DNA of 64,000 nt from Macrolepiota albuminosa (Eukaryota > Basidiomycota > Agaricomycetes > Agaricales > Agaricaceae), in contig JAMWFC010000115.1 of the NCBI GenBank assembly GCA_027475525.1, forward strand, positions 1,640,847 through 1,704,846, read 5' to 3'. Position numbers and translations under genes: made by a program. Below the pieces are notes generated by a model, which ran no database searches, was not told the DNA's origin, and was given only the letters and a program-made list of their open reading frames with translations. Positions 2,765-64,000 of the stretch are shown in pieces; the first letter of the stretch is position 1; every line of letters starts with the position of its first letter.

Positions 2765-3793
2765 TGTGGTAGAGGAGGAAGAGTTGTTGATGGAATCAGG
2801 CTGAGAGAGACGTTCGGCAAGTAGATTGGGTTTGACCACTGGATCGACAAGCACAGGTAAAACGGAGAAGAAGCGTTCGAGCGAGACGAAAGTAACAAAT
2901 GGTGAAGCCGGATTAGGGAATGGATTGTACGAATAGGGCAAGAGGAAAAATAGAGTTTGGGATTACGAGACCAACCAGCGGTCAGAAACAGAATCGGGGA
3001 GGAATCGACGATTTAAAGTGGTCTGGGAGGTAGATCGTCGATACCGAGAACAGGTAGAATAAGTATAAAAGGCGAGAAAAACATACGAATAGATAGGTTT
3101 TCGTACCCCACATTTTCAGGTCTTGAGCTCCGCTTGTTTCGCGCGTCTCGTATCTCTGTCTCGTCGACGTCTGGTCTGCTCTCGGTGTCTCTTTCTGACT
3201 GGTATACTTCTGGCTTCGTCGACGTCTGATCCGACGTCAGGCATCGCGTGTTCGCCGTCTTCGGCAGCGAGCTCGGTTCTTCTCGGCTTCTCGGTATTCT
3301 GTGCTTCTCTGTCTCGGCTCTGTCTTTCTCTCAGCTCTGTTCTCGGCTGTCCGGCTTCCTGGAGTCAGAGCGTCTTGATTATCTTCGGCTTTGCTTGTGT
3401 CTGCCTCGGCTTGACTCTCCATTTGTTCGCTTGACTCGGCTTCTCTGCTTTAGTCTCAGCTCGATTCTCGACTTACTGGCTCTTTGATTTCTTGACGTCT
3501 CGTATCTTCTGCTAGTCGACCTCCTTGATTGTCTTGACTCTGCTTCTGCTCTTCTCCTCGGGACTTCAGTCTTCTGCTGTACTCTCTCTCTCTGACTACT
3601 GGGACACTCTCGGACTCTCTGGTGCTCACCGTCTTTTGCTCCACGGTTTTTCCTCTCAACGCAACGAACGTTACCCTACGTTTACGACGCGTATACACAT
3701 TTTACTGTCTATCTCGACCTCTACCCTTACTCTCCACTTCCGACTCCTTCGACTTCGAATTCGATCCATCAGGTAGTCCATCCCACGTCCACA
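2765..3793 (+). repeat. 5' LTR of the Gypsy element
   Basis: Starts TGTGGTAGAGG and ends ACGTCCACA. It contains a TATAAAAG box at 3064-3071 that probably drives the genomic RNA; downstream it is very rich in CT/TCG, which leaves several meaningless open frames. Confidence 0.93.
3064..3071 (+). promoter_or_regulatory. TATA box in the 5' LTR
   Basis: TATAAAAG inside the LTR; an identical copy lies at 10771-10778 in the 3' LTR. It marks the likely U3/R promoter. Confidence 0.55.
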
Positions 3794-3812: not shown

Positions 3813-3872
3813 GGGTGTTAACGCGTATTTGGGATCGACCTTGACGAAGAAAGAAAGAGTTAATTGGAAGTA

Positions 3873-6434
3873 ATGGAGGGAAACTCAGAGTCGTCTATTC
3901 AGGAATCGCCTGGTGTCCAGGCATCATCGTCTTCTGACACCCAGACCTCTTCTTCTGGCGTTCCGACTTCTTCTCCTTCTGGCGAACAGACCCCTTCCTT
4001 TTCTGGGAGTCAGACCACTTCTGGAGGATGCAATAATGCCGTTCCCATGCCTGCGCCATATGACAGGCACGCGCCGTACTTCGACGGCAATCGGGTGCAG
4101 GATTTTTTGGATTCATTGGAACACCATGCGGATAGGGCAAAGGTTATTCATTCGCAACTCCCTGGCTACGTATTACGCTACTGCTCGAGGAAAGTAAAGA
4201 GGGTGATAGAGAATATGCCAGAATTGGGAGCGGATGATTGGGTAGCGTTGAGGGTGATGATGATAGACTTATATGGAATGAATGACTCGGAGTCGGTGAT
4301 AAACTTGGAGTCGTTCTGGACTTGGACAACGAAGCATGGCATGGAAGGAAGCATAACATCGAAACACGAGGTGGGAGAATATTACAGGCAGTTTAAAAGA
4401 CTTTCGGTTCCGTTAACACGAGCGCCACGACGCATTACGGAGCATGACTTAAACTGGTGCTTTTATCGAGGGATCCCGGATGACTTGAGAATGAGAATTA
4501 GTAGGAAGGTACCGACGGAGAACGAGAGGACGACGAACCCACCGACGATCGAAGATCAGATGAAGTGGCTATTAGCGGAATTCGACGTTCTAAGCATTAA
4601 CAATGTTCGAGCTCCGATCGTGATGCCGGAAACTGAGGAGGAGTCAGAGGATACGGACGACGAATCTGAAAAAAGGGAGTGGAAGCTAGAGAAGAGAAGG
4701 AAGAGGATAAATCCTAAGACGGGTGGATCAGGACCTACTGTCAAGGAGATTCCGAAGCAGGGATCGGTGGATGACCTTGCGAAGGAGCTAGAGCAGTTGA
4801 AATTGATGATGGCAGAGGGCTTTAGGGCACAGAACAATTTGATGAGTGGTGGAATGACGGGAACAGGACGAAGGTGTGGAATGGGGGGATGCAGGTGTCC
4901 CGAGGACCACGCCTTCGGCTACAATAATTGCCCGTTAACGCACAAGCTTCTCGAGGAAGAGCTGATTCGATATGATAAGCGTGGACGTTTAGTATTGATG
5001 GACGGGGAAGACTTACCGCCGCCGACTAGGGATGCAGGAGGAGTTGCGCGGAAGATTCGAGACATGAGGGTAAAAAAAATGGAGATGAAAGGAAAAATGA
5101 CTGAAAGGAGGGATGCTCCTCCTCATATGGTCTTGACGAGTTTGGCAGAGCTTCAGCTGGACGGGAAGGAAGTGCTGACACGGGAGGCTTTCGGGGTGGC
5201 GATGGTTGAATCGACACCGACTTGGAGGGCCTCGGCGAGTCCCGCTGTTTGTACGCAAAAAGATGACATTCGGCACGATCCTACGAAGCGAGGACCTACG
5301 ATTAAAATTCCTGCGAAGCCGAACGCTGCTAACGTGCCGAAGGAGTCGGGAAGAGAGAACGAGAAGAGAGGAATGGATAGGGAGGGCGGCAAAAAGACGA
5401 CCGCGCCGAAACCCCACGAAACGAGAGCGCCGCAACATCCAGTGCCGCCCGCACAGAATACGAGGGGAGGAACAGAGAAGAAGGAAAAAGGAGAAGGGGG
5501 AGGAAAAGGGCACCCAACATATCACTTTACGTCGACGGTGCAGGAGAAGGTGGACTTGGGGATGATTGAGGCGAAACTGCTGGATGAAACCATGATTACC
5601 ATGACAGTCGGGCAGTTTTTAGGATGCTCACCGGAGTTCCAGAAACGAATGGCTAACTTGACGAAAACTCGTCGAGAATATACGGACAAGATGGTGGTGG
5701 CAAACAAGGTAGAAACCTTCGACGACGACATGTGCCCTTGCGGGTGCGCAGAATTAAGAACAGAGGGAGAATTCGCGGATGAAGAAGGAGGGATAGAATT
5801 CGACGGTTCGAAAGTACACGTGGAGTACGACGCAGAGGACATTACGAAAGAAGCAATTGAAGTAAGATACGCGTCAGCCGTGAAGTTACACAAGTGTCCA
5901 GTTCCGTTGTTCGCGATGGTGACAGGGAAATTCGAAGGGAAGTTTGGAGGGGTAAGAGCGGTTTTTATGGTCGATACGGGGTCGGAGTTGAACTTGTGTC
6001 CGGGTTACTTGTATGAGAAGACTCAATTATCCTTGGACCTGGACGGGACGAGATGGTCACTAAAAGGGATTCACGGCGACCCGGTTAGGTTGAAAGGCTG
6101 TGCGCGAGATGTGTCGGTTAAGATTGGTGGACATGCGTTCGACCACCATTTCTTCGTGAATGGAGCGGTACGAGGATCTGAAGCTTCGGGTGACGTCATA
6201 CTTGGACAACCGTGGTTACAGTGGTATACGGCATGCATCCAATACGATCGATCGGGTGGGATGATTATGAGGGTTTGGCAAGACGGATTTCAAGGAGATA
6301 GGGCGACGTTGTCGGTGCCATTAACCGCACCAAATGAAGTTAGGAATAAGGAGTCGCTGGAGGTAATGGGTCACTCAAGGTGTAAACATAGGCCAACGGT
6401 CGAGGATGCGGATGAAGACGAGGCGGAAAACTGA
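3873..6434 (+). CDS. Gag polyprotein with C-terminal retropepsin-like protease
   Basis: The ORF from ATG 3873 gives 853 residues. The N-terminal 60 residues are Ser/Thr/Gln-rich. A capsid-like helical region follows (about 60-280), then a charged linker. A Cys/His cluster at about residues 334-360 (RRCGMGGCRCPEDHAF, then NNCP) looks like a degenerate zinc knuckle. A Lys/Glu-rich segment leads to an aspartic protease whose catalytic motif VDTGSELN has its Asp at residue 701. Having the protease in the Gag frame rather than in Pol is an arrangement known from some Ty3/Gypsy lineages. The ORF stops at TGA 6432-6434, directly after a slippery-looking G-GAA-AAC. No internal stops, so the copy appears functional. 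Confidence 0.88.
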   Translation: MEGNSESSIQESPGVQASSSSDTQTSSSGVPTSSPSGEQTPSFSGSQTTSGGCNNAVPMPAPYDRHAPYFDGNRVQDFLDSLEHHADRAKVIHSQLPGYVLRYCSRKVKRVIENMPELGADDWVALRVMMIDLYGMNDSESVINLESFWTWTTKHGMEGSITSKHEVGEYYRQFKRLSVPLTRAPRRITEHDLNWCFYRGIPDDLRMRISRKVPTENERTTNPPTIEDQMKWLLAEFDVLSINNVRAPIVMPETEEESEDTDDESEKREWKLEKRRKRINPKTGGSGPTVKEIPKQGSVDDLAKELEQLKLMMAEGFRAQNNLMSGGMTGTGRRCGMGGCRCPEDHAFGYNNCPLTHKLLEEELIRYDKRGRLVLMDGEDLPPPTRDAGGVARKIRDMRVKKMEMKGKMTERRDAPPHMVLTSLAELQLDGKEVLTREAFGVAMVESTPTWRASASPAVCTQKDDIRHDPTKRGPTIKIPAKPNAANVPKESGRENEKRGMDREGGKKTTAPKPHETRAPQHPVPPAQNTRGGTEKKEKGEGGGKGHPTYHFTSTVQEKVDLGMIEAKLLDETMITMTVGQFLGCSPEFQKRMANLTKTRREYTDKMVVANKVETFDDDMCPCGCAELRTEGEFADEEGGIEFDGSKVHVEYDAEDITKEAIEVRYASAVKLHKCPVPLFAMVTGKFEGKFGGVRAVFMVDTGSELNLCPGYLYEKTQLSLDLDGTRWSLKGIHGDPVRLKGCARDVSVKIGGHAFDHHFFVNGAVRGSEASGDVILGQPWLQWYTACIQYDRSGGMIMRVWQDGFQGDRATLSVPLTAPNEVRNKESLEVMGHSRCKHRPTVEDADEDEAEN

Positions 6435-6489
6435 ATGGGGGTGCGAGACCGGGGCCTGTTAAACAGCTCGCATCTATTCCACGCCTCGG
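6425..6489 (+). promoter_or_regulatory. Candidate -1 ribosomal frameshift signal with three-stem pseudoknot
   Basis: The last Gag codons are GCG GAA AAC TGA, giving a heptamer G-GAA-AAC at 6425-6431. The Pol frame is -1 to Gag and is open from 6386, across the Gag stop. After an 8-nt spacer, bases 6440-6447 pair with 6467-6474 (8 bp, one G-U). Bases 6449-6455 in the loop pair with 6483-6489 downstream (7 bp, one G-U), forming a pseudoknot. Between them 6456-6466 (CTGTTAAACAG) forms a 4-bp hairpin. This resembles three-stem frameshift pseudoknots. The A-site half (A-AAC) is classical, but the P-site codon GAA re-pairs poorly with GGA, so the slippery site is non-canonical. Structure was derived by hand. 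Confidence 0.6.
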
Positions 6490-6505
6490 GGAAAGTCTGT
6501 ACGCT

Positions 6506-9500
6506 ATGGTCGGGAGTTATGATATAAGGGGAGAAAGCGAGTTGGAGACGATGGGTTGGGAGGAGAGAGAACCGCCGGAAGGTTACGACGCTTTGTTGAA
6601 GAGAGTGGCATTTTCTTCGCCGGTTCCGATTGAACCGCAATCGACGCCATGGACAAGGAGAGTGTTTGAGGGAAAGAGGACGAGGGAAGGAGAGGTGATC
6701 TTGTCAGCAAATGTTCTCCAGAGAAAGACGAAATATAAACCGGTGGACCGAAAAGTTCGACCGGTCCCCAGCTACATGCCAAACCCAGAAGGTCAGACGT
6801 TTCGACCGGTGATAATTGAGGAACCGCCGCCTTTACCTATGGAACCGCCACGATTAGATGATTTTGTGCCGACAGAGAAGTTAACAAGGGAGAGGTTGGA
6901 TGCTATTCTTGCTAGGGTGCCAGATGGGTTCCTGAACCCAAGAGAGGTCGACTTGTTGGTGTTCGTTTTGTTGAAAAGGGAAGACGCTTTGGCCTTTGAC
7001 GATTCGGAGAGAGGCACGTTCTCACCCAAGTATTTTGACGACTACGAGATTCCGGTAATTGAACATACGCCATGGGTACAGCAACCGATTCGAATCCCCA
7101 AGGCCATAGAAGAGCAAGTCAGGGAGACGTTGCTGGCTCAGGAGAAAGCAGGGAAGTTTGAACCTTCGACGGCGTCATACAGGTCCAGGATCTTCGCCGT
7201 CGCTAAAAAGAATGGGATAAGGATAGTCCAGGACGTACAAGAGTTGAACAAAGTCACAGTGCGGGACGCGGCATTACCTCCGAGAGTGGACGATTTCGCA
7301 GAGGGATTTGTGGGAAGAGGAGTTTATGGGTTGTGTGATTTGTTTGCGGGGTATGATGGAAGGAGACTAGCGAAGATTTCGAGACCTTTAACGACGTTTG
7401 GGTGCATACTTGGAGCCAGAAGAGGGACGACGTTACCTCAGGGAGCAACGAATTCCTTGCCGGAATTCCAGAAGTGTGTCGATCATACGATCAAGGAGGA
7501 GATGGAGGCTCAACCACCAAATGGTAAAGGGTTCGTGGATGATGTTGGAATAATGGGCCCTAAGTCATGGTACGGTGGAATCGAGATTGCGCCAGGGATC
7601 AGAAAAGCGATTTACGAGTATGCGACAATCTTGGACCGTTTCTTCGCACGTTTCATCGAAGCAGGAATTACGGCTTCAGGAAAAAAACTTGTTTTGGCGA
7701 CACCTATGTTGAACATTGTTGGCACGGTCGTTTCGATGGATGGATGGCACTTGGAGCGAGGGCTTGTGACTAGAGTTGAAAAATGGCCTGTTCCTGAGGA
7801 CGTGTCGGACGTCAGATCATTTCTGGGCACAGCCGGAGTAGGAAGGAAATGGATTCGAAACTTTTCGTTGGTGGCGAAGCCTTTGACAATGCTAACCCGG
7901 GTTTCGGAGAGGGAGTTTTACTTTGGAGAAGATGAAGTCCAAGCGATGGACTCGATAAAAGACCTGATGACGTCGGCTCCAGTGCTTATAGTAATAGAGT
8001 ATGAGGAGGCGAGACGGCACTCGAGGCTGAATATTGAAGCGAAGGAGACGAAGGAGGACTTGAATGGTCTGGTAGTGGTTGGCGTGGACTCCTGCAAGAA
8101 TGGAGCTGGTTGGATCCTGCAACAATATAGAGGAAGAGAGAAGAAACCGGCACTATTTGGGTCGTGCACTTACAATGAGACGGAGTCAAGATACTCACAA
8201 CCGAAGTGCGAGTTGTATGGACTTTTTCGCGCATTGAAAGCCTTGCGACATCGAGTTTGGGGGATATATTTTCGAGTGGACGTAGACGCGAAATTCTTGG
8301 TTGAAATGATCCAAAATCCGGATTTGCCGAACGCACCAATGACGAGATGGATCCTTTACATCTCTCTCTTCGACTTTTCTTTGAATCACGTTCCGGCGCA
8401 GTCGCATCAAGGACCTGACGGTCTTTCTAGAAGGAAGAGAGCTGACGACGATTCAGAGGACTCGGACTCGGAGGAGTTTTTAGACAGATTCGTTGGACGA
8501 CTGTCGACGAATCTTACAAGTAGCGTGTCGACGTGTTTTTCGGCCCGTGGAGGGGAGACAGACTGGAGGACAGGCCCGATGAAAGGTCTGATGGAGCACG
8601 TCCGAAGAATGCCAAAGACTCCATGCGCGACCTTCGTGACAAGCTCGAAAGCGATCTACATGTCTCTGTTCGGTGTCGCAGAAAAGAATTGGAAGACGGA
8701 GAATATGGGTCTCTTCGCAAATTTCGGCGTAGACGAAACACGCACGAATCTATCTCACACCTCAGATTCGTTCGTCTTCCTTGGAAGGGAATTTTGTCGA
8801 AAACGTCGGTTGCAGGAAAAAGAAGTAGACGTTCTATGGGGAGATGAGGTTATTTCCCTGAGTGTCGTTCAGTGCGAATGGGGAGTGGGTTTCGAGAAGG
8901 GTTGCGAGGGGGAAGTTATCTGTGCGAAGCACGAGTTTGGAATAAAAGATAAAGAACCGGAGGGAATGTGGATGGAGATTAAGGTCTACTTGCAGACTTT
9001 GGAGATGCCTGGGTGGTGCATAACGGAGAGAGAACGGACAACCTTCATCAAGAATTCGAAACGGTATTTCTTGTATGGGAACAAGTTGTGGCTCGTACCG
9101 GTCAAAGGGAGGCAGCCGAGGCTGGTGGTGGAACATAAAGAAAGACGCCAGGAATTGATCGCTGAGGCACACAACAATGCAGGGCACAGGGGACGTGACG
9201 CGACGTATAAGACCTTGTTCGACAGGTTTTACTGGCCTAATCTGTACGATGATGTCGCGTATTTCGTACGGTCTTGTAACATCTGCCAGTTACGATCGAG
9301 GACGAGACCTAAAGTGGCTTTCTCTCCTACTTGGAGTGCCGCTATCCTTCGATACTTCTGTTTGGACACGGTACACATGGGAGACGGTCATGGAGGAAAG
9401 AAGTATCTCTTACAAGGAATGGAACCGGCGATAGGATGGCCAGAGGCAAGAGCGTCGAGAAGAGCGGATTCTGTATCGTGGGGAAAATTCATGTACGAAG

Positions 9501-10459
9501 AAATTATCTGCCGCTTTGGACATATTCCCGCGTTCATTACCGATGGAGGGAAGGAGTTTCTAGGGGCGGCCGAATATATTTACCGACAATACGGCATTAC
9601 CGTCATAGTGTCTTCGCCTTATCACCCGGAAGGCAACGGCATAGTCGAGAGGGCGCACAAGACGTTGTGTGATTCGATACTGAAAGCGTGTGGGAGGGAC
9701 TCAGGAAAGTGGCCGCTGTTCGTGGAGGCTGGACTCTTGGCGATGCGAACAACGACGTCAAGAATGACTGGTTACACTCCGTATTTCCTGCTTTACGGCC
9801 GCGAGCCGTTTTTCGCTTTCGATATGGCGGACGTGACGTGGGGGGCACTTGATTGGGATCAAGTAAGGTCAACGGAAGACCTTTTGGCTACAAGAATGCG
9901 GCAGTTGGTTAGACGAGATGAGAAGTTAGTAATCGCTCTCGAACGCCAGAAGGAGGCAAGACAAAAGGCAGTGACGGCATTCAATGACAAGTTTAGCAAA
10001 ATATTGACAAGTGGAGAATTTGTCGAAGGGACTTGGGTGTTGGTACACGAGACATGGTTGGAAGGTCAAAAAGGACACAAGTTCGCTTTACGATGGTCAG
10101 GGCCGTTTATTGTGCACCGTAAACTACGACACACGACGTATCAGCTAAAAGAGCTGGACGGGACTATTAAACGAGAGTCGGTTGCGGCGAGTAGGATGAA
10201 GATTTTCTATTTTCGGGAGGAGTTCCAGACTATAAAAACGGTGGGGACGGTTGAGATTCGAGACACTGACGGAAAAGACGGAGATTGCCGTCTGAACTTG
10301 TGGACGAGGGTGGTTAATGGATTGAAAGAAGGTCGAGATGGAAGGTGTCTTACAATCGGGGAAATGTCAGGGGTGGCGACGACGCCGATGGTCTTTTTAA
10401 ATGTCGAGTGGCTTGTCCAGGAGCCGTTAGGATGGGAAGACGATGGGGTCATCGTCTAA
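6506..10459 (+). CDS. Pol polyprotein: reverse transcriptase, RNase H, integrase
   Basis: From ATG 6506 the frame gives 1317 residues; by -1 frameshifting from Gag it would start at 6431 and run about 1342 residues. Reverse transcriptase spans about residues 180-450; its catalytic pair is in GFVDDVGIMG (Asp345/Asp346), with Phe where Tyr is more usual. RNase H follows at about 520-640 (VGVDSCKNGAGW with Asp528; Glu569 in CELYGLF). The integrase has an HHCC-like zinc module (AHNNAGHRG ... CNIC), a DDE core (Asp954, Asp1013, Glu1048; the last two 35 apart) and a C-terminal GPF/Y-type module (WSGPFIVHRKL). Stop at 10457-10459, just before the 3' LTR. No frameshift or stop seen. Confidence 0.93.
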   Translation: MVGSYDIRGESELETMGWEEREPPEGYDALLKRVAFSSPVPIEPQSTPWTRRVFEGKRTREGEVILSANVLQRKTKYKPVDRKVRPVPSYMPNPEGQTFRPVIIEEPPPLPMEPPRLDDFVPTEKLTRERLDAILARVPDGFLNPREVDLLVFVLLKREDALAFDDSERGTFSPKYFDDYEIPVIEHTPWVQQPIRIPKAIEEQVRETLLAQEKAGKFEPSTASYRSRIFAVAKKNGIRIVQDVQELNKVTVRDAALPPRVDDFAEGFVGRGVYGLCDLFAGYDGRRLAKISRPLTTFGCILGARRGTTLPQGATNSLPEFQKCVDHTIKEEMEAQPPNGKGFVDDVGIMGPKSWYGGIEIAPGIRKAIYEYATILDRFFARFIEAGITASGKKLVLATPMLNIVGTVVSMDGWHLERGLVTRVEKWPVPEDVSDVRSFLGTAGVGRKWIRNFSLVAKPLTMLTRVSEREFYFGEDEVQAMDSIKDLMTSAPVLIVIEYEEARRHSRLNIEAKETKEDLNGLVVVGVDSCKNGAGWILQQYRGREKKPALFGSCTYNETESRYSQPKCELYGLFRALKALRHRVWGIYFRVDVDAKFLVEMIQNPDLPNAPMTRWILYISLFDFSLNHVPAQSHQGPDGLSRRKRADDDSEDSDSEEFLDRFVGRLSTNLTSSVSTCFSARGGETDWRTGPMKGLMEHVRRMPKTPCATFVTSSKAIYMSLFGVAEKNWKTENMGLFANFGVDETRTNLSHTSDSFVFLGREFCRKRRLQEKEVDVLWGDEVISLSVVQCEWGVGFEKGCEGEVICAKHEFGIKDKEPEGMWMEIKVYLQTLEMPGWCITERERTTFIKNSKRYFLYGNKLWLVPVKGRQPRLVVEHKERRQELIAEAHNNAGHRGRDATYKTLFDRFYWPNLYDDVAYFVRSCNICQLRSRTRPKVAFSPTWSAAILRYFCLDTVHMGDGHGGKKYLLQGMEPAIGWPEARASRRADSVSWGKFMYEEIICRFGHIPAFITDGGKEFLGAAEYIYRQYGITVIVSSPYHPEGNGIVERAHKTLCDSILKACGRDSGKWPLFVEAGLLAMRTTTSRMTGYTPYFLLYGREPFFAFDMADVTWGALDWDQVRSTEDLLATRMRQLVRRDEKLVIALERQKEARQKAVTAFNDKFSKILTSGEFVEGTWVLVHETWLEGQKGHKFALRWSGPFIVHRKLRHTTYQLKELDGTIKRESVAASRMKIFYFREEFQTIKTVGTVEIRDTDGKDGDCRLNLWTRVVNGLKEGRDGRCLTIGEMSGVATTPMVFLNVEWLVQEPLGWEDDGVIV

Positions 10460-10471
10460 GTTGCCGTGACC

Positions 10472-11500
10472 TGTGGTAGAGGAGGAAGAGTTGTTGATGG
10501 AATCAGGCTGAGAGAGACGTTCGGCAAGTAGATTGGGTTTGACCACTGGATCGACAAGCACAGGTAAAACGGAGAAGAAGCGTTCGAGCGAGACGAAAGT
10601 AACAAATGGTGAAGCCGGATTAGGGAATGGATTGTACGAATAGGGCAAGAGGAAAAATAGAGTTTGGGATTACGAGACCAACCAGCGGTCAGAAACAGAA
10701 TCGGGGAGGAATCGACGATTTAAAGTGGTCTGGGAGGTAGATCGTCGATACCGAGAACAGGTAGAATAAGTATAAAAGGCGAGAAAAACATACGAATAGA
10801 TAGGTTTTCGTACCCCACATTTTCAGGTCTTGAGCTCCGCTTGTTTCGCGCGTCTCGTATCTCTGTCTCGTCGACGTCTGGTCTGCTCTCGGTGTCTCTT
10901 TCTGACTGGTATACTTCTGGCTTCGTCGACGTCTGATCCGACGTCAGGCATCGCGTGTTCGCCGTCTTCGGCAGCGAGCTCGGTTCTTCTCGGCTTCTCG
11001 GTATTCTGTGCTTCTCTGTCTCGGCTCTGTCTTTCTCTCAGCTCTGTTCTCGGCTGTCCGGCTTCCTGGAGTCAGAGCGTCTTGATTATCTTCGGCTTTG
11101 CTTGTGTCTGCCTCGGCTTGACTCTCCATTTGTTCGCTTGACTCGGCTTCTCTGCTTTAGTCTCAGCTCGATTCTCGACTTACTGGCTCTTTGATTTCTT
11201 GACGTCTCGTATCTTCTGCTAGTCGACCTCCTTGATTGTCTTGACTCTGCTTCTGCTCTTCTCCTCGGGACTTCAGTCTTCTGCTGTACTCTCTCTCTCT
11301 GACTACTGGGACACTCTCGGACTCTCTGGTGCTCACCGTCTTTTGCTCCACGGTTTTTCCTCTCAACGCAACGAACGTTACCCTACGTTTACGACGCGTA
11401 TACACATTTTACTGTCTATCTCGACCTCTACCCTTACTCTCCACTTCCGACTCCTTCGACTTCGAATTCGATCCATCAGGTAGTCCATCCCACGTCCACA
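10472..11500 (+). repeat. 3' LTR of the Gypsy element
   Basis: Direct copy of 2765-3793 at a constant offset of 7707. It ends CCACA followed by the target duplication TCGG. Confidence 0.93.
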
Positions 11501-14847: not shown

Positions 14848-15583
14848 TGGACTATTTCACTGGTAATGCTTCCTTTGTTCCTCGGCCAGCGACTTATATC
14901 TATTCCACCTGCTAAGCATACATTTCTACTTCTCATTTACGCAACAACAACCTCGGCCTCTTCCCATTCAGTCAAGGATTCTGAGAGAATGGTGGCGTCT
15001 CCTCATTTGCGCGCTACGAGACGGATTCACAAGATGACCAAAAACAGCGCACGACAAGAAAGACGATACAACAATGGCATGCAAGGATGGCTACGATGTA
15101 TGCTATGCGCCAAGGAGGAGGCCCTTTTGTTACGAGGACAACGTATTAAAGCAAACGGGCTTATGATAATGTCGTGATCGTCACTTGCAGCAAGACGTGA
15201 CGTGGAAGGTTTGCAAGTGCGCGTGGCCATTTCTGGAGTGGGGTTTGTATATGTATATGATGCCGTATCGGATGATCGCGAGAACGCCAGAGTTGGATGC
15301 CCGCAGCAAACAAGTACGTACAGAGCATGGATGTACGGTAAATGCGAATGCGTAAAGTACAAGAAAAAGCTTGGGCCACAAATGTCAAAAGAGACTAGGA
15401 AAAAAAAACGAAAAGAGGACTTTTGTCGTTTGCGTAGTGATCTCGCACGGCAGACCAGATGAGTGTGGAGGACAAGCGTAAAGTGGTGTAACTGTCAGAG
15501 ATAGAGACTCATAGATCATAGGAGTCAATGTCACGTGTCCACGGCTGCGCCCCATTCAATATGTTTTTTCTTTGGTTGTACAT
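14848..15583. other. Intergenic; no gene recognised
   Basis: Open frames on both strands are short, overlapping and without family motifs or consistent splice signals. Confidence 0.45.
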
Positions 15584-15758
15584 AAGTTCGTTACTATCCC
15601 AATAACGCAACTGAGGTATGTTTATTACAATTCACTATTTACCTACATCCGTAACTTACTTCATTATGCCTAGCACGCTACGGCGTTTATTAGGTGATTA
15701 ATATAAAGTTCGTTACTATCCCAATAACGCAACTGAGCACGCTACGGCGTTTATTAGG
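15584..15758 (+). repeat. Intron-present/intron-absent repeat pair, locus 1
   Basis: Block E1 (15584-15615) and block E2 (15674-15694) flank a 58-bp segment (15616-15673) that starts GTATGT and ends CCTAG. After an 11-bp spacer, 15706-15758 repeats E1+E2 with no mismatch in 53 bp and with the 58 bp missing exactly (junction 15737/15738). Hairpins can form across both ends of the 58-bp segment: ACATA/TATGT plus AGTT/AACT plus CGTTA/TAACG around the 5' site, and CCTA/TAGG plus ACGC/GCGT around the 3' site. See the matching loci at 19.1, 30.2 and 63.8 kb. Function unknown. Confidence 0.8.
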
Positions 15759-17088
15759 AGCAGATCTCTCTGATAGTAACAAGGTAACAAGGCGAGCAGC
15801 AGGTGGACTTAAGCTTGGGGTCAGCACAATGCGCGATTACGCTACGCAAGGCGATGTGACCGTGCGCGCCGATAAGAGTCGAACGGGCTGCCTAGTGCCG
15901 AGGTAGGCTATACAAGTTCATCGGGTTCCTCGACATGTCAGCGTCCCCATCGTTCATCGTTGCATTTCAGGCAAAGATTTCTTTCTCATGAAAGTTTGGC
16001 CGATGGAACTGATGGTGATACCATGGATTGTGCGAGTTCTTTTCTCAAATTTTCTCTGCATAGCGATAGCACTTGTCATAAAAATTACAGCCAATGCCTC
16101 ATACAACTGTTTACCACCGATTAGATCCTCTGGGTTTAATTTCATTACCCATGACGCATGTGACTACAGGATCACGCCTGGCAAAGCGCCGTTCACGTGA
16201 ACTTTTAGATGGTTTGAAGCGGTGATATGTTTTCCATTATTTCATTATGACGCTTTTATTATCATATACTTACATTCACGGCTATAAATATCATGTCGCA
16301 CCCCTAGAGTCATATCATCTCTCGATATTTGACTCCAGGTGCGTCATTTACTTTACGTTATTCCAAACTTGTACTTATACATCATCTCAATATTTGACTC
16401 CAGATTATTATATTGTTAACTACTGTCGAATACATCATCGTTTGCCATAATGCTGCGTCATTAGTTACAATGAGAGGGTTTTGATATGTACGAGGATGAC
16501 AGACAAAGCCAAAAAACGTCTAGGATACGTGTACCATATGAACCTAATCTCGGTTCCCGGCATCACCCATGCCTCTCAGACTGGACCGAACTAATGGCAA
16601 TTGATTCTTTGATTGATAAGATTTTTATATCAAGTTTCATCCCTTGAACTCAACTAATTGCCAGTATGGAAGAAACACAATAAGAGAGCTTCAAATTAGA
16701 TCTGATTTGGGTGAACCAGGATCTGTCAGTGCGTCCACAGCATTATCATTGTTAATGCTGGGATTCAAAGCCTACTCCCTCTTTCTTGATCATTATTTCC
16801 TTTTTTATTATTTCTTACCAATATACAATTTTTGTACCACCACACCTCAGGCGCTTACCACCATCTGTGGACGCATCTGAGTTATTACTTACGGTATCAT
16901 CTGACAATCATTATGATTCAAAGTGTCTGATTCAACCATTGAGATGCATCTCTGAATCTGTCATATCAATTGATTTGAATGAATTATAATATAAACCCAT
17001 GTTGATTCAGATAGCAAAAACCCGGTTCCCGTCCTCTATCACTGTCTCAAACAGTGGCTTATTTCATAGTCGACTATCTGCACCAATC
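15759..17088. other. Intergenic; no gene recognised
   Basis: AT-rich with short unsupported ORFs. It contains a short direct repeat (ATATTTGACTCCAG near 16326-16339 and 16391-16404) but nothing else identifiable. Confidence 0.45.
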
Positions 17089-19063: not shown

Positions 19064-19243
19064 TGTACCTAGTGAAATACAGACATCGTTAGTGTCGATC
19101 CTCAGTCCGTATACAAACGACTCTATTTTCTGTACCTAGTGAGATACAGACACCATTAGTGTCGATCTATCAGTACAGTCAATGTCCATTCGTAGATATA
19201 AGTATGATAAAGAAACTCACCCTCAGTCCGTATATAAACGACT
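19064..19243 (-). repeat. Intron-present/intron-absent repeat pair, locus 2
   Basis: Read on the minus strand: E1 (19243-19221), a 54-bp GTGAGT...GATAG segment (19220-19167), E2 (19166-19131), an 8-bp spacer, then E1 (19122-19100) fused directly to E2 (19099-19064). The two copies differ at 4 of 59 bases, so this pair is older than locus 1. An 11-bp hairpin with one G-T pair (CACTCTCAGTC with GACTGAGGGTG) spans the 5' site. GACAC/GTGTC with an AGAT/ATCT extension spans the 3' site. Confidence 0.8.
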
Positions 19244-29515: not shown

Positions 29516-30129
29516 TTTCGACAGGGAAGGGCTGTAGACAAACACGACCACATTAAGGGGATAATCACGCTTTCATTTGCACCCTTAAGATATTCTTGTA
29601 CTATGTAAGTCCGTCCCTTGTTGTCTCCTATAATTGTCGGTCCGCCACGTTAATTTTAAAAAATGTACGGTTATGCAAGTGCCGTTAATAAACGTGTACT
29701 TGGAAACGTATTCGTTCAACCTTCCTAATTGTCGCTTGAGATTGTAGCTTGAGATTGGCAGAGGCGCCACACCAATCCTTTCGAGATTATCATCCGTTAA
29801 ATTCCGGAAAATCATGCCTTAAATGTCCCGTATCACTCCACGTCGTCTCAACCTAACTAAAGTTAACAACGTTCAGATCACTCCGGGACCCCGGTCAACG
29901 GAACTTGTAACGCTTGATTAAAAGCTCAAAAGCTTGACCCTTGATCTTTTCTCTTGTTAAGGCTTCACGCCGTATAGATTTCCCATGGAATCATATTCAA
30001 GGTCTTATCCATCAACCATGTTGACGCAATGTGGGACAAGCGAAGGACGTGGACCTATGAGAAAAGCGTAAGTCAGCTCTATAAGCCCGTAGTGAACACG
30101 ATAAGCAGGGACTGTAAGACCAGACCCAA
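29516..30129. other. Intergenic; no gene recognised
   Basis: No supportable gene. A 13-bp tandem (GCTTGAGATTGTA, GCTTGAGATTGG) lies near 29732-29757. Confidence 0.45.
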
Positions 30130-30312
30130 ATACCTACGAGACAGTAAAATAATCCTCAGTGAACTGTCTTGGTGACAGATGACAACTGAGTTGATCATAC
30201 CTACGAGACAGTAAAATACTGTCCAATAATGTACAATCAGTATAGAAGAATTAAACAACATTTACATACTCACATCCTCAGTGAACCGTCTTGGTGACAG
30301 ATGACAACTGAG
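30130..30312 (-). repeat. Intron-present/intron-absent repeat pair, locus 3
   Basis: Read on the minus strand: E1 (30312-30274, 39 bp), a 55-bp GTGAGT...GGACAG segment (30273-30219), E2 (30218-30197, 22 bp), a 6-bp spacer GATCAA, then E1 (30190-30152) fused exactly to E2 (30151-30130). One mismatch in 61 bases. A perfect 13-bp inverted repeat (TCACATCCTCAGT / ACTGAGGATGTGA) spans the 5' site. GACAGTA-TTT-TACTGTC, a perfect 7-bp hairpin, spans the 3' site. Confidence 0.82.
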
Positions 30313-30716
30313 GATGTGAAGTCGCGCAATTACGTCTTTATACTCAAGATCATGTGACCACGTAGACTAACTGACCTAATAGCATACCGTCCGTCTAACA
30401 GGGACCTCTGAAGAAACAGAAACGTGAGGGAGGCTTTCCCTCCAATGTTTGTCCATATGGACTAGGCGCGTGTTCTCTTACCCACACAGAACAGAAATCA
30501 CGCACAGAAGAAATTCAGGGTATGGTCACTGAGCAGTACGCACCTCACGGAACTGAGGTGTGACCAATGTATGATGAATAATCATATAGGAGTGCACATG
30601 GGCCAGCGAAGGAGATGTATCTGCAACTGCATCGCGAGAAGTATTCTCGTGATAACGAAATGAACTCAATATCCTTCCAATCACACAATTTTCAAATTCT
30701 CGACTTCGGCTGCTCC
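30313..30716. other. Intergenic; one nested hairpin, no gene
   Basis: Around 30523-30566 GGTCAC...GTGACC encloses CCTCA...TGAGG, a nested hairpin ending in ACTGAGGTGTG that resembles the 5' halves of the repeat-pair loci, but no second copy follows. Confidence 0.4.
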
Positions 30717-39240: not shown

Positions 39241-39700
39241 CCATTGAACAATATCAAGTCGTCGTCCAGATAAGCGTCCTCACAACTCTATCACAGATAT
39301 TTACGGCTTTTTCCCAAGTGGAGCAGGCCTCATTGGTATCCCCTACAACGTTAATTATCAAACCGTAAACCTTTTCTTCTCCTTGCCGTAGGTTGATTAA
39401 TACCTAGTATCTCCCTCCTCCAGCACGATTTGCACCAAGTACGGAGTAAGTTCAACCTCTACTATTCTCCTAAATCGTCTAACGACCCTGGTAACAGTGC
39501 AGGCATTGACAACGCCATTTCCCAATCACTTGTCTTTTTCCAATCCACTTCCACATTATCAAGGAAGGCTTAACTGGACTATATCTAAAGTCCTTTTCCC
39601 TTCTTGGCCCTTCAGAGTGATTTCCAACTTTCAGAATGACGAGGAAATCAGAATTTTCCCCTCGCTTCCCCCTTTGTATCGAGGCCATCCTGAAATTCAT

Positions 39701-41062
39701 ATGAGAGCTGGCATCATGAGGGCAGCCCGCCTCGTCGAAGCCCATCAACCAGACGCTGAAAAGGCCTTCTTTGTGGCGGACCTTAGTCAGGTCTATCGTC
39801 AGCACTTAAGGTGGATCAAGGCTCTCCCAGAAATCCAGCCCTTCTACGGTGAGTGACTCAGTGGAATACGGTTCAAATCAACTCACATGTGCGCCCAAAT
39901 TAAAGCTGTAAAATGCAATCCGGATCCTTATGTCATTCGTCTCCTTGCTGCATTGGGTGTAGGTTTCGATTGTGCATCCAATGGCGAGATTTCCAAGGTC
40001 CTAGATGTGGGAGGTATTGACCCGTGCCGAATAATCTTCGCCAATCCTTGCAAAGCTGTTTCGTTCATCAGGAATGCCGCAAAGATGGGTGTCGAAACAA
40101 TGACATTCGACAACGCTGACGAGCTTTACAAGATCGCTCGTGCCCACACCAGCGAGAAGCTCATCATTCGCATCCTGACGGACGATTCAAAAAGTTTGAG
40201 CGCGCTCGGTATAAAATTCGGTGCCCCTTTGGCGACCGTGCCCATGCTCCTTGCAAAGGCGCAAGAACTCGGTCTCAATGTTGTAGGAGTCTCTTTCCAT
40301 GTGGGGAGTGGGTGTTACGACCCTTCAGTATACGCCGATGCCATAAGGTGTGCTCGTGCGGTCTTCGACATGGGGAAAGAAGCAGGATTTCTATTCCATC
40401 TGTTGGACATCGGCGGTGGTTTTGAAGATACACTCTTTGAACAAGCTGCCAGATTTGTGACCCAAGCAATTCATGACTACTTTCCTGATCGTCAAGGCCT
40501 GAGGATTATTGCAGAACCTGGCCGCTTCTACGTTTCCAGAGCTTTCAAACTTGCTGCCAATATAATTGCCAGGAGGGCTCCTGTTGTCGACGTTCCCCAA
40601 GAAAGCGCGGAAACATCCGGTCAACCGAACGTTATGTGTGAGTTCTTCTCATCAGTTCTTGAGTATTGATGTTTCTGATCGCTTGAAGATTACATCAATG
40701 AAGGAATTTACGGTGCTTTGAACTGCGTCATGTTCGACAAAAGAATCCTGCATCCTTATGTTTTGTCGCTCAATGGGTCATTCCACGTCCCTGCATCGGA
40801 ACCACAGGGATTATGCAGTGTATGGGGTCCGACGTGCGATTCCATTGATTGCGTGTCTCCCACGACCATACTACCAAGAACACTTCGAGTCGGCGACTGG
40901 CTTGGCTTTGATGATATGGGTGCTTATACGGTCTGCTCAGCCAGCCAATTTAACGGATTTGAAGTCAGTAATGTAACATATACATTGGGAGGATCAGAAG
41001 AATCCGAGGTATACCGAGCACTTAGAACCTTCGCTGCAGACTTGTATGGACCTGAGAATTGA
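39701..41062 (+). CDS. Ornithine decarboxylase, 3 exons
   Basis: Exons 39701-39848, 39906-40637 and 40689-41062 join in phase (introns 57 and 51 bp) to give 417 residues. It decarboxylates ornithine to putrescine, the first step of polyamine synthesis, using PLP. The PLP lysine is in FYAVKCNPDPY (Lys52 of this model). Other landmarks are FDCASNGEI, FHVGSGCYDP, LLDIGGGFED, IIAEPGRFYV and the active-site Cys in WGPTCDSIDC. The frame stays open upstream to about 39497 with ODC-like sequence (FRVISNFQNDEEIRIFPSLP), so the true N-terminus may lie on an upstream exon I could not fix; 39701 is the first in-frame ATG. Intact. Confidence 0.88.
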
Positions 41063-62891: not shown

Positions 62892-63766
62892 GACAACCAG
62901 CTGTTTACGACACAGATGAGGCACCTTGGCAATGCTGCACGACTTGAGCTTTTCTGCTATGTACATCTACTCTGTTTCAGTTTCGAAATCGTCCATACAT
63001 CACATCTATGTATGACAGAAAAGATTCTGAATACATGACATCGAGTTAGTTCGCAAATTTCATGAATTGTTTGAGTGCTCAACATCTTGAATATAATTAG
63101 CTCTAAATACAAGGGTTCGTCATCATCCATCCAATTTCCTCTTACGTTCCACAGTCATCTTCGCTGTTTCCGTCTCCTTCGTTGTTTTTACCCTCTGGCT
63201 ACTCGATGCCCAAAGGGACCCCTCTGTATGTGAATGAGAGTCAGAGTGGAACGATGAATGGAAACGGGACCTTGAGCGGGAAAGATCAGGAAACGCCCGT
63301 TGGCCGTGGAGCGTGCTAGACAACTAGAAGCACCATCGGAAACATTCAAGGACTCATCCTTCACTTCCATTGAGTCGCAAGCAACCTCAATGCCGTTGCC
63401 AATCCTTCCTTTCCACACACCGATTTTAACACCAACACCGTCTCCAAGCAGTTGCCAAGAGGGGATGGGGTTGGTATGGGTACTAAAGAAATTTGTAGTG
63501 ATGGTTGGTAACAACCAATAGAAATATTATCGATGGGGCAAGTGTTATGATTGATATATACTAAGCACAGCGTGCTGGCATACTTTGGCATAAGCTTGAA
63601 GACACCTTCGTTGTAAATGAAGAACTGACAGAAAGTATCAGCGGCTGGTCAAAAAGTGACAATGAAAAAACGCCGTTCCTCATGTGGCTCCTCGATCGGT
63701 GCTGTATAACTATTCAGCCACCGACGAGGGTTAGTAAAAGTATCATTACCATTTAATAATACCTTT
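62892..63766. other. Shared 3' flank, then unassigned sequence
   Basis: 62892-63100 is homologous to the flanks of copies B and C. From 63123 to 63323 the minus strand has an Ser/His/Lys-rich open frame ending ERKRKLDG that could be a terminal exon, but no partner exon was found. Confidence 0.4.
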
Positions 63767-63921
63767 AGTTCTATTCTACAGACTGAGGGTATGTCTATCT
63801 TACTTATCTTATTTATTCTTATGCTTATTGTTTCCTGTAGACACGATACTTAGCTACGTTCTGCAGGTCAATATAAGAGTTCTATTCTACAGACTGAGGA
63901 CACGATACTTAGCTACGTTCT
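63767..63921 (+). repeat. Intron-present/intron-absent repeat pair, locus 4
   Basis: E1 (63767-63788), a 52-bp GTATGT...CTGTAG segment (63789-63840), E2 (63841-63862), a 15-bp spacer, then E1 (63878-63899) fused exactly to E2 (63900-63921). No mismatch in 44 bp. An 11-bp hairpin with two wobble pairs (ATACCTTTAGT / ACTGAGGGTAT) spans the 5' site. CCTGTAGA-ACG-TA with TA-CGT-TCTGCAGG, about 13 bp with two bulges, spans the 3' site. Confidence 0.82.
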
Positions 63922-64000
63922 ACATCAACTGTTGATTTTCGTCCTTCAGGGACGAAAGGACGAAAACAACCACGCACGTCACTGGCACTCAGAGAGCGAC

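Follow-up and report, generated by a model that had tools for sequence, protein, structure and literature searches.

Locus 1 of the window, the 64,000-nucleotide stretch of DNA analysed here, is a 283-bp solo LTR (TGTCAGAG...CTCTGATA, 15493-15775, plus strand), delimited by the edges of aligned copies and by a 5-bp TSD, GTAAC, whose left copy (15488-15492) matches the right one (15776-15780). The order within the LTR is U3-[A-intron1-B]-spacer-[A-B]-U5, with all parts on the plus strand. Its intron-bearing first copy consists of A1, a putative exon 1 (15585-15615) with a predicted transcription start at 15585 and with CATA in front of it where sister copies have CCTC; intron 1, of 58 bp (15616-15673, GTATGT...CTTAC...CCTAG); and B1, a putative mini-exon 2 (15674-15693) that ends at AG/GT (slashes within motifs mark edges). 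The spacer (GTGATTAATATAA, 15694-15706) leads into the second, spliced copy, in which A2 (15707-15737) is directly joined to B2 (15738-15757), and a U5-like tail (15758-15775) runs up to the LTR end; spacer, A2 and B2 together make up a candidate intron 2 of 64 bp (15694-15757, GTGATT...TTATTAG). The preliminary description had recorded this arrangement as an exact direct repeat of 32 nt (15584-15615) plus 21 nt (15674-15694), recurring 11 bp downstream (15706-15758) with zero mismatches and with the 58-bp GTATGT...CCTAG segment (15616-15673) cleanly missing. That observation is correct and much larger in extent than first noted: the pair belongs to an LTR of a Ty1/copia retrotransposon, and there are hundreds of such occurrences.

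The same layout is found, as had also been claimed, at three further loci of the window (19064-19243, 30130-30312 and 63767-63921), the first two on the minus strand. Locus 3 is a 288-bp solo LTR (TGTTAGACGG...TCTTACA, 30113-30400, minus strand, TSD GTCCC) that carries A1 at 30274-30309, intron 1 at 30219-30273, B1 at 30201-30218, the spacer at 30188-30200, A2 at 30152-30187 and B2 at 30134-30151, with TATAAA 33 bp upstream of A1. Locus 2, a decayed LTR fragment at 19069-19243 on the minus strand for which a TSD was looked for and none found, comprises A1 (19221-19243), intron 1 (19167-19220), B1 (19136-19166), spacer (19123-19135), A2 (19100-19122) and B2 (19069-19099). Locus 4 (63690-63924, plus strand) matches only positions 106-339 of the 339-bp LTR of L022 and thus lacks the 5' part; its A1 lies at 63767-63788, intron 1 at 63789-63840, B1 at 63841-63866, the spacer at 63867-63877, A2 at 63878-63899 and B2 at 63900-63924, and, as at locus 1, there is no CCTC before A1. 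Mismatches between the two copies amount to one in A and three in the 31-nt B at locus 2, one in A at locus 3 and one in B at locus 4. Locus 3 is an LTR of a second family, locus 4 of a third and locus 2 of a fourth. In a mismatch-tolerant scan the real window yields three layouts, locus 4 being too close to the window end for the script to count, and each of 12 dinucleotide shuffles yields none. Abutting the locus 4 LTR is a 37-bp stretch (63924-63960) with an inverted repeat (GTCCTTC..GAAAGGAC) that, among the matches listed, has 14 exact copies elsewhere and six more with 94-97% identity; two loci carrying it, L028 and L029, hold minisatellite-like arrays.

Among the neighbouring features, a Ty3/gypsy-like element has two LTRs of 1,029 bp (2765-3793 and 10472-11500), whose identity marks it as a young insertion, a likely TCGG duplication, and frames at 3864-6434 (DUF4100) and 6416-10459 (integrase zinc-binding and RNase H domains). 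An ornithine-decarboxylase-type gene (39401-41062, Orn_Arg_deC_N) holds a 57-bp intron at 39849-39905, and the window also encodes an SKN1/KRE6 glucan-synthesis protein, of a fungal family. Protein and intron length together make a fungal host probable; a basidiomycete would be a guess. Rfam and tRNA scans of the window returned nothing.

Locus 1 (175 bp), used as query against the 100-Mb assembly to which the window belongs, gave 12 places. The left edge TGTCAGAG is common to the eight copies aligned with their flanks, and the right edge reads CTCTGATA, CTCTGACA or CTCTGAAA in seven of them, L005 being cut there. The LTRs end in TG..(C/N)A and have 5-bp TSDs, plausible examples of which occur in 9 of 42 rows (L001 GTAAC, L002 ATAGC, L006 GCAAA, L008 ACAAA, L040 TAGTA, L047 GTCCC, L070 GCTTA, and L059 and L062, which share ATAAC and may be one insertion); the other rows have none, many of them being cut, nested or only one member of an LTR pair. 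The TSDs read by eye across pairs are CTCTG (L004/L003) and AAGAG (L022/L023). One pair, 6.5 kb apart on a single contig and with CTCTG across it, encloses broken copia-like frames (L009), and two LTR places 5 kb apart on another contig flank copia frames (L010) that match RVT_2 (1.7e-72), SH3_retrovirus, Pol_BBD, Retrotran_gag_2 and gag_pre-integrs above the cut-off and rve (2.1e-06) below its cut-off. RVT_2 is also present beside the LTRs of L057 and L058 (family 3) and L023 (family 4), and Pol_BBD in L020; the frames of L022 and L048, two of the six copia-side frames scanned, gave no domain match. Common edges, 5-bp TSDs and LTR pairs around copia genes together establish locus 1 as a solo LTR, and the Ty1/copia membership of family 1 follows from RVT_2-type pol between paired LTRs (L009, L010) combined with TG..CA-like ends and 5-bp TSDs. 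In 11 of 40 rows, representing at least five families, the LTR end is immediately followed by GGTTATGGG or a close variant; the remaining rows lack the sequence or are LTRs that are 3', solo or cut. A single pattern for the expected primer tRNA of the host gave no match, and a tblastn comparison of the element reverse transcriptase with viral_contigs found no relative. Two other identities were rejected: that of a MITE, because the TIR-like ends are the LTR ends and LTR pairs flank copia genes, and that of the split direct repeats of DIRS/PAT/Ngaro elements, in view of the TSDs and copia domains, a sub-threshold rve and no recombinase match in the scanned frames.

Genome-wide, the motif at the start of the first copy, CCTCAGTN{8,28}CTGAGN{0,3}GTRNGT (CCTCAGT...CTGAG followed by GTRNGT), has 1,322 matches in the assembly (656+666), representing fewer sites than that because the near-palindromic stretch makes some of them match on both strands; the reversed control has 0 (0+0). 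Out of about 100 matches listed, 40 sites on contigs C1, C6 and C9 were taken, one per unlike A where possible, and, being picked for unlike A sequences from the first listed contigs, they do not sample the genome at random. Under a strict script, 20 of them have the complete layout. By eye, the other 20 comprise nine of the form A-intron1-B-U5 without a second copy (L083, L087, L093, L099, L101, L107, L109, L113 and L115), nine that are unclassifiable, one with a second copy beside a damaged B1 (L077) and one cut within A2 (L080); three further sites inspected in the same way all have the second copy, one of them (L118) with a B of only about 9 nt. Since the same type of junction recurs across many families, an assembly artefact, against which the preliminary description had cautioned, is unlikely.

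The edges of the copies were analysed in 64 instances from 23 families, separated by having fewer than 17 identical positions out of 22 in A, supplied by scans that required GT..AG around intron 1, the strict script for the 40 sites also requiring CCTCAGT; L118 lies outside this set, and the minisatellite false positives L028 and L029, together with L064 and L065, which have an extra B, were excluded from the edge, signal and co-variation analyses alike. The left edge of homology is exactly TC/AGT in 13 of the 23 families and 1 nt off in five, and in 17 families, but not in the other six, the AG/GT of the first copy falls between -2 and +1 nt relative to the right edge. Past B, the first copy continues with GT (often GTATGA, GTACGA or GTACAG) and the second continues into U5; in family 4, the second copy reaches the LTR end, meets the candidate primer site and covers what would be the whole strong-stop cDNA. 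As its right edge is the end of B, followed by U5 or the LTR end, the second copy spans what the strong-stop cDNA of a spliced leader would, and with edges that mostly start at TC/AGT and end at AG/GT it looks like cDNA of a spliced RNA leader.

Intron 1 measures 48-66 bp within the limits of the script, is mostly GTRNGT..YAG, and contains a YTNAY motif in 18 of 18 representatives, which are not all independent families and were scored without a shuffle control. It thus combines GT..branch..AG with a host-like length and precise absence from the second copy, as a spliceosomal intron should, the host being represented by one intron read by eye (39849-39905, 57 bp, GTGAGT..CTCAC..AAG). In the candidate intron 2, the YTNAY motif is present in only 13 of the 18 representatives, and the donors are weak in families 1 and 4 (GTGATT/GTGAAT, GTCAAT). 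TATATA or TATAAA is found by eye 30-35 bp before the predicted start in five of the 18, an A/T-rich variant in another five and neither in eight; together with the TC/AGT left edge, these TATA-like boxes would, judging from the letters, place the RNA start at the left edge in most families.

Across the predicted start site, a DNA inverted repeat, CCTCAGTY..RACTGAGG, usually frames the first copy throughout the genome (at locus 3 within 30274-30313), and its longer form in some families, ACGYACCC..GGGTRCGT, also takes in the splice donor. A general stable RNA hairpin in exon A was rejected, because of 11 A exons folded only two family-1 sequences have z below -2 and none of the other nine does. 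The GT..AG segment and its repeats could also be a promoter or another signal in DNA or RNA, for example CCTCAGTY..RACTGAGG, that merely imitates an intron; the inverted repeat around the first A does have 1116+1110 matches on the two strands, whereas its reversed control has 48+35, most sites being counted twice because the pattern is palindromic. Such a signal is nevertheless very unlikely to be the explanation, as it leaves unaccounted for both the exact absence of the segment from the second copy and the co-variation of the copies.

This co-variation was tested in families 1 and 3, on rows that are not independent because they include both LTRs of some elements and probable alleles. For the 18 LTRs of family 3, transversions and gaps between the copies of one LTR sum to 6, against a permuted mean of 64.7 and a minimum of 31, none of 5000 random pairings being as low as observed; for the eight LTRs of family 1 the sum is 0 against a permuted mean of 7.5, with 79 of 5000 pairings as low. 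Per 100 sites, 4.09 transitions, 0.61 transversions and 0 gaps separate the two copies within a family-3 LTR, compared with 11.42, 4.93 and 1.99, respectively, between first copies taken from different LTRs; an indel common to both copies (TTTTACTG in L047, TTTTAACTG in L048) follows the same rule. In these two families, differences from one element to the next thus affect both copies in concert, the pattern predicted if the spliced first copy is the source from which the second is rewritten. The differences between copies within LTRs of families 1 and 3 are mostly transitions (C/T or G/A), several of which, by eye, fall at CpG, a bias that resembles the outcome of cytosine methylation or RIP-like mutation. 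One C/T difference between copies is common to both LTRs of the pair in L003/L004 and again in L061/L066, and might reflect repeated CpG mutation or else speak against strict rewriting.

Of the two readings that had been offered for the exact GT/AG loss, the reverse transcription of a spliced RNA fits well, and the insertion of a new intron-like element after tandem duplication fits badly, because introns differ between families and yet, within each element, the two copies share their changes in A and in B; the earlier interpretation is in this sense partly supported. Plain tandem duplication was likewise rejected. A variant in which each family underwent a DNA-level tandem duplication followed by gene conversion, the intron-like segment being an insertion in the first copy, can draw on the fact that tandem copies are known to convert each other, and a 21-bp tandem duplication would also yield the form of L064/L065 described below. 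Conversion would, however, have to homogenise A and B separately around an unshared segment of 50-60 bp, in many families, seldom spreading or removing it, and it gives no reason for edges that lie mostly at TC/AGT and AG/GT or for intron sequences that vary between families when splice signals do not. This history is accordingly regarded as extremely improbable.

Taken as a whole, the repeat pair is likely to be the LTR core of Ty1/copia elements in which a doubly spliced leader rewrites the second copy and the intron-bearing first copy is kept in U3. Transcription would start at the A of CCTC/AGT in the first copy, giving an RNA with the 5' leader A1-intron1-B1-intron2-U5-primer site, intron 2 being the spacer plus the entire second copy, and both splicings would leave an RNA that begins A-B-U5. 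Reverse transcription from the primer site would then copy U5-B-A to the cap, and the strong-stop cDNA would land on A2 near the 3' end of an RNA polyadenylated in A2 or B2, perhaps with the A/T-rich spacer as signal. In the resulting LTR, U3-A1-intron1-B1-spacer-[freshly copied A-B-U5], the intron-bearing first copy would have been inherited via the U3 of the 3' LTR, and the second, rewritten every cycle from the spliced first, would act as R for strand transfer; the order of these steps is one that we infer. What the sequences themselves show is LTR identity, layout, edges, abundance and, in two families, co-variation. Against the proposal stand the persistence of intron 1 at the RNA 3' end, for which the model does not account, the 9 of 40 sites without a second copy, the apparent element with a second copy in one LTR only, two apparently intronless first copies in family 3, the 8 of 18 representatives without a TATA-like box, the missing CCTC at loci 1 and 4, the shared C/T differences, the incomplete YTNAY occurrence and weak donors of intron 2, an AG/GT that is off the edge in 6 of 23 families and the lack of a match to the primer tRNA pattern. 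On balance, the assembly probably harbours a large group of LTR retrotransposons with an R made by splicing, in which U3 holds an intron-bearing master copy and a spliced slave copy serves as R-U5.

Variant forms bear on how the second copy arises. In L064 and L065, apparently both LTRs of one element, the second copy reads A-B-GAT-B before U5, which is likely a fossil of alternative splicing that used an AG/GAT acceptor within A2 for intron 2: intron 2 would have run from the donor following B1 to the AG before GAT, instead of the end of B2, and the resulting leader would have been copied into the LTR. Identical letters would come from a 21-bp tandem duplication, its length and phase then being luck. 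Exact patterns for family 3 identify 48 first copies with a donor and, overall, 34 A-B junctions, of which 25 have an intact first copy no more than 200 bp upstream, two have one 869 bp away and seven have no exact-pattern first copy nearby. The copies 869 bp apart (C46:450121-451035 and C71:708114-709028; L049, L050, L072 and L073) are separated by other DNA, including an LTR of another family, and represent a nested insertion in probably allelic copies. Two family-3 sites resemble first copies already joined A-B, with intron 1 missing; set against the 48 with a donor, they indicate that in this family the first copy rarely loses its intron.

Loss of spacer, A2 and B2 is commoner than loss of intron 1, being seen in L013 and L053 in addition to 9 of the 40 sites, and one apparent element has a second copy in its 5' LTR (L117) and none in its 3' LTR (L087). 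It may result from deletion between the B repeats or from reverse transcription of an RNA that kept intron 1 and lost intron 2. The 5' LTRs L101 and L109, similar in sequence and both without a second copy, may belong to a lineage that keeps intron 1 without one, a hint that weighs against the second copy being strictly needed. These losses also bear on a different route, in which the leader is spliced at intron 1 only and the polymerase jumps between the B (or A-B) repeats during strong-stop synthesis, so that spacer and second copy are deleted in the cDNA and the second copy is rewritten in this way. B repeats that start only 56-73 bp apart and the exact spacer-A2-B2 loss in L013, L053, L087 and others would suit it, the latter being equally an outcome of repeat-mediated deletion; an AG/GT near the right edge in 17 of 23 families and the form of L064/L065 are expected from splicing and not from jumping, and make this route unlikely.

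In textbooks, intron loss is ascribed to reverse transcription. If the double-splicing model is true, introns are kept through that process by storing the unspliced and the spliced leader side by side, which would amount to a novel way of achieving strand transfer and would connect splicing with retrotransposition in a new manner; leader introns would survive indefinitely, and the genome would hold hundreds of DNA records of leader splicing, many of them natural before/after intron pairs, including a likely alternative splice product. The benefit is probably intron-dependent expression, and the arrangement could explain the success of retrotransposons in fungi where intronless genes often express poorly. 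Four papers (PMC3744415, PMC4935854, PMC8379801, PMC7017817) report that introns raise expression in several basidiomycetes and that fungal genes without introns are often poorly expressed.

Searches of open-licence papers on LTR introns turned up no LTR in which a leader intron is accompanied by its spliced counterpart; the 'intron in the LTR' match in the part of PMC5542766 concerned is due to a vector name, LTR1.20, and was set aside as not an LTR intron.

With Ty1/copia LTR retrotransposons the present elements share copia-type gag, an RVT_2 reverse transcriptase, short LTRs and a 5-bp TSD, and GGTTATGGG may be a primer site like that of copia; Drosophila copia uses a half-tRNA primer. Unlike those elements, they carry an intron-bearing and a spliced leader copy in the LTR, whereas, as far as is known, R in other elements is one uninterrupted stretch and the leader of the genomic RNA is unspliced. 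The retroviruses HTLV and HIV also have a splice donor close to the RNA start, in R or U5, but their unspliced RNA is the genome, whereas the present elements seem to use the spliced leader as template. Retroviral vectors of the split-intron type similarly carry an intron through reverse transcription by LTR duplication; they are engineered, however, and have no spliced twin copy in their LTR. The split direct repeats of PAT/Ngaro elements, of the DIRS order, have the same sequence A1-x-B1-A2-B2, but those elements encode a tyrosine recombinase and lack a TSD, whereas here the repeat lies inside an LTR, with integrase-type domains and a TSD. Introner elements resemble the present case in the many intron-like segments per genome; that identity was rejected because intron 1 differs, by eye, between families together with its site, and every intron examined here stands in an LTR context. 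By its proteins the element is thus Ty1/copia, with an LTR organisation that matches no kind known to us.
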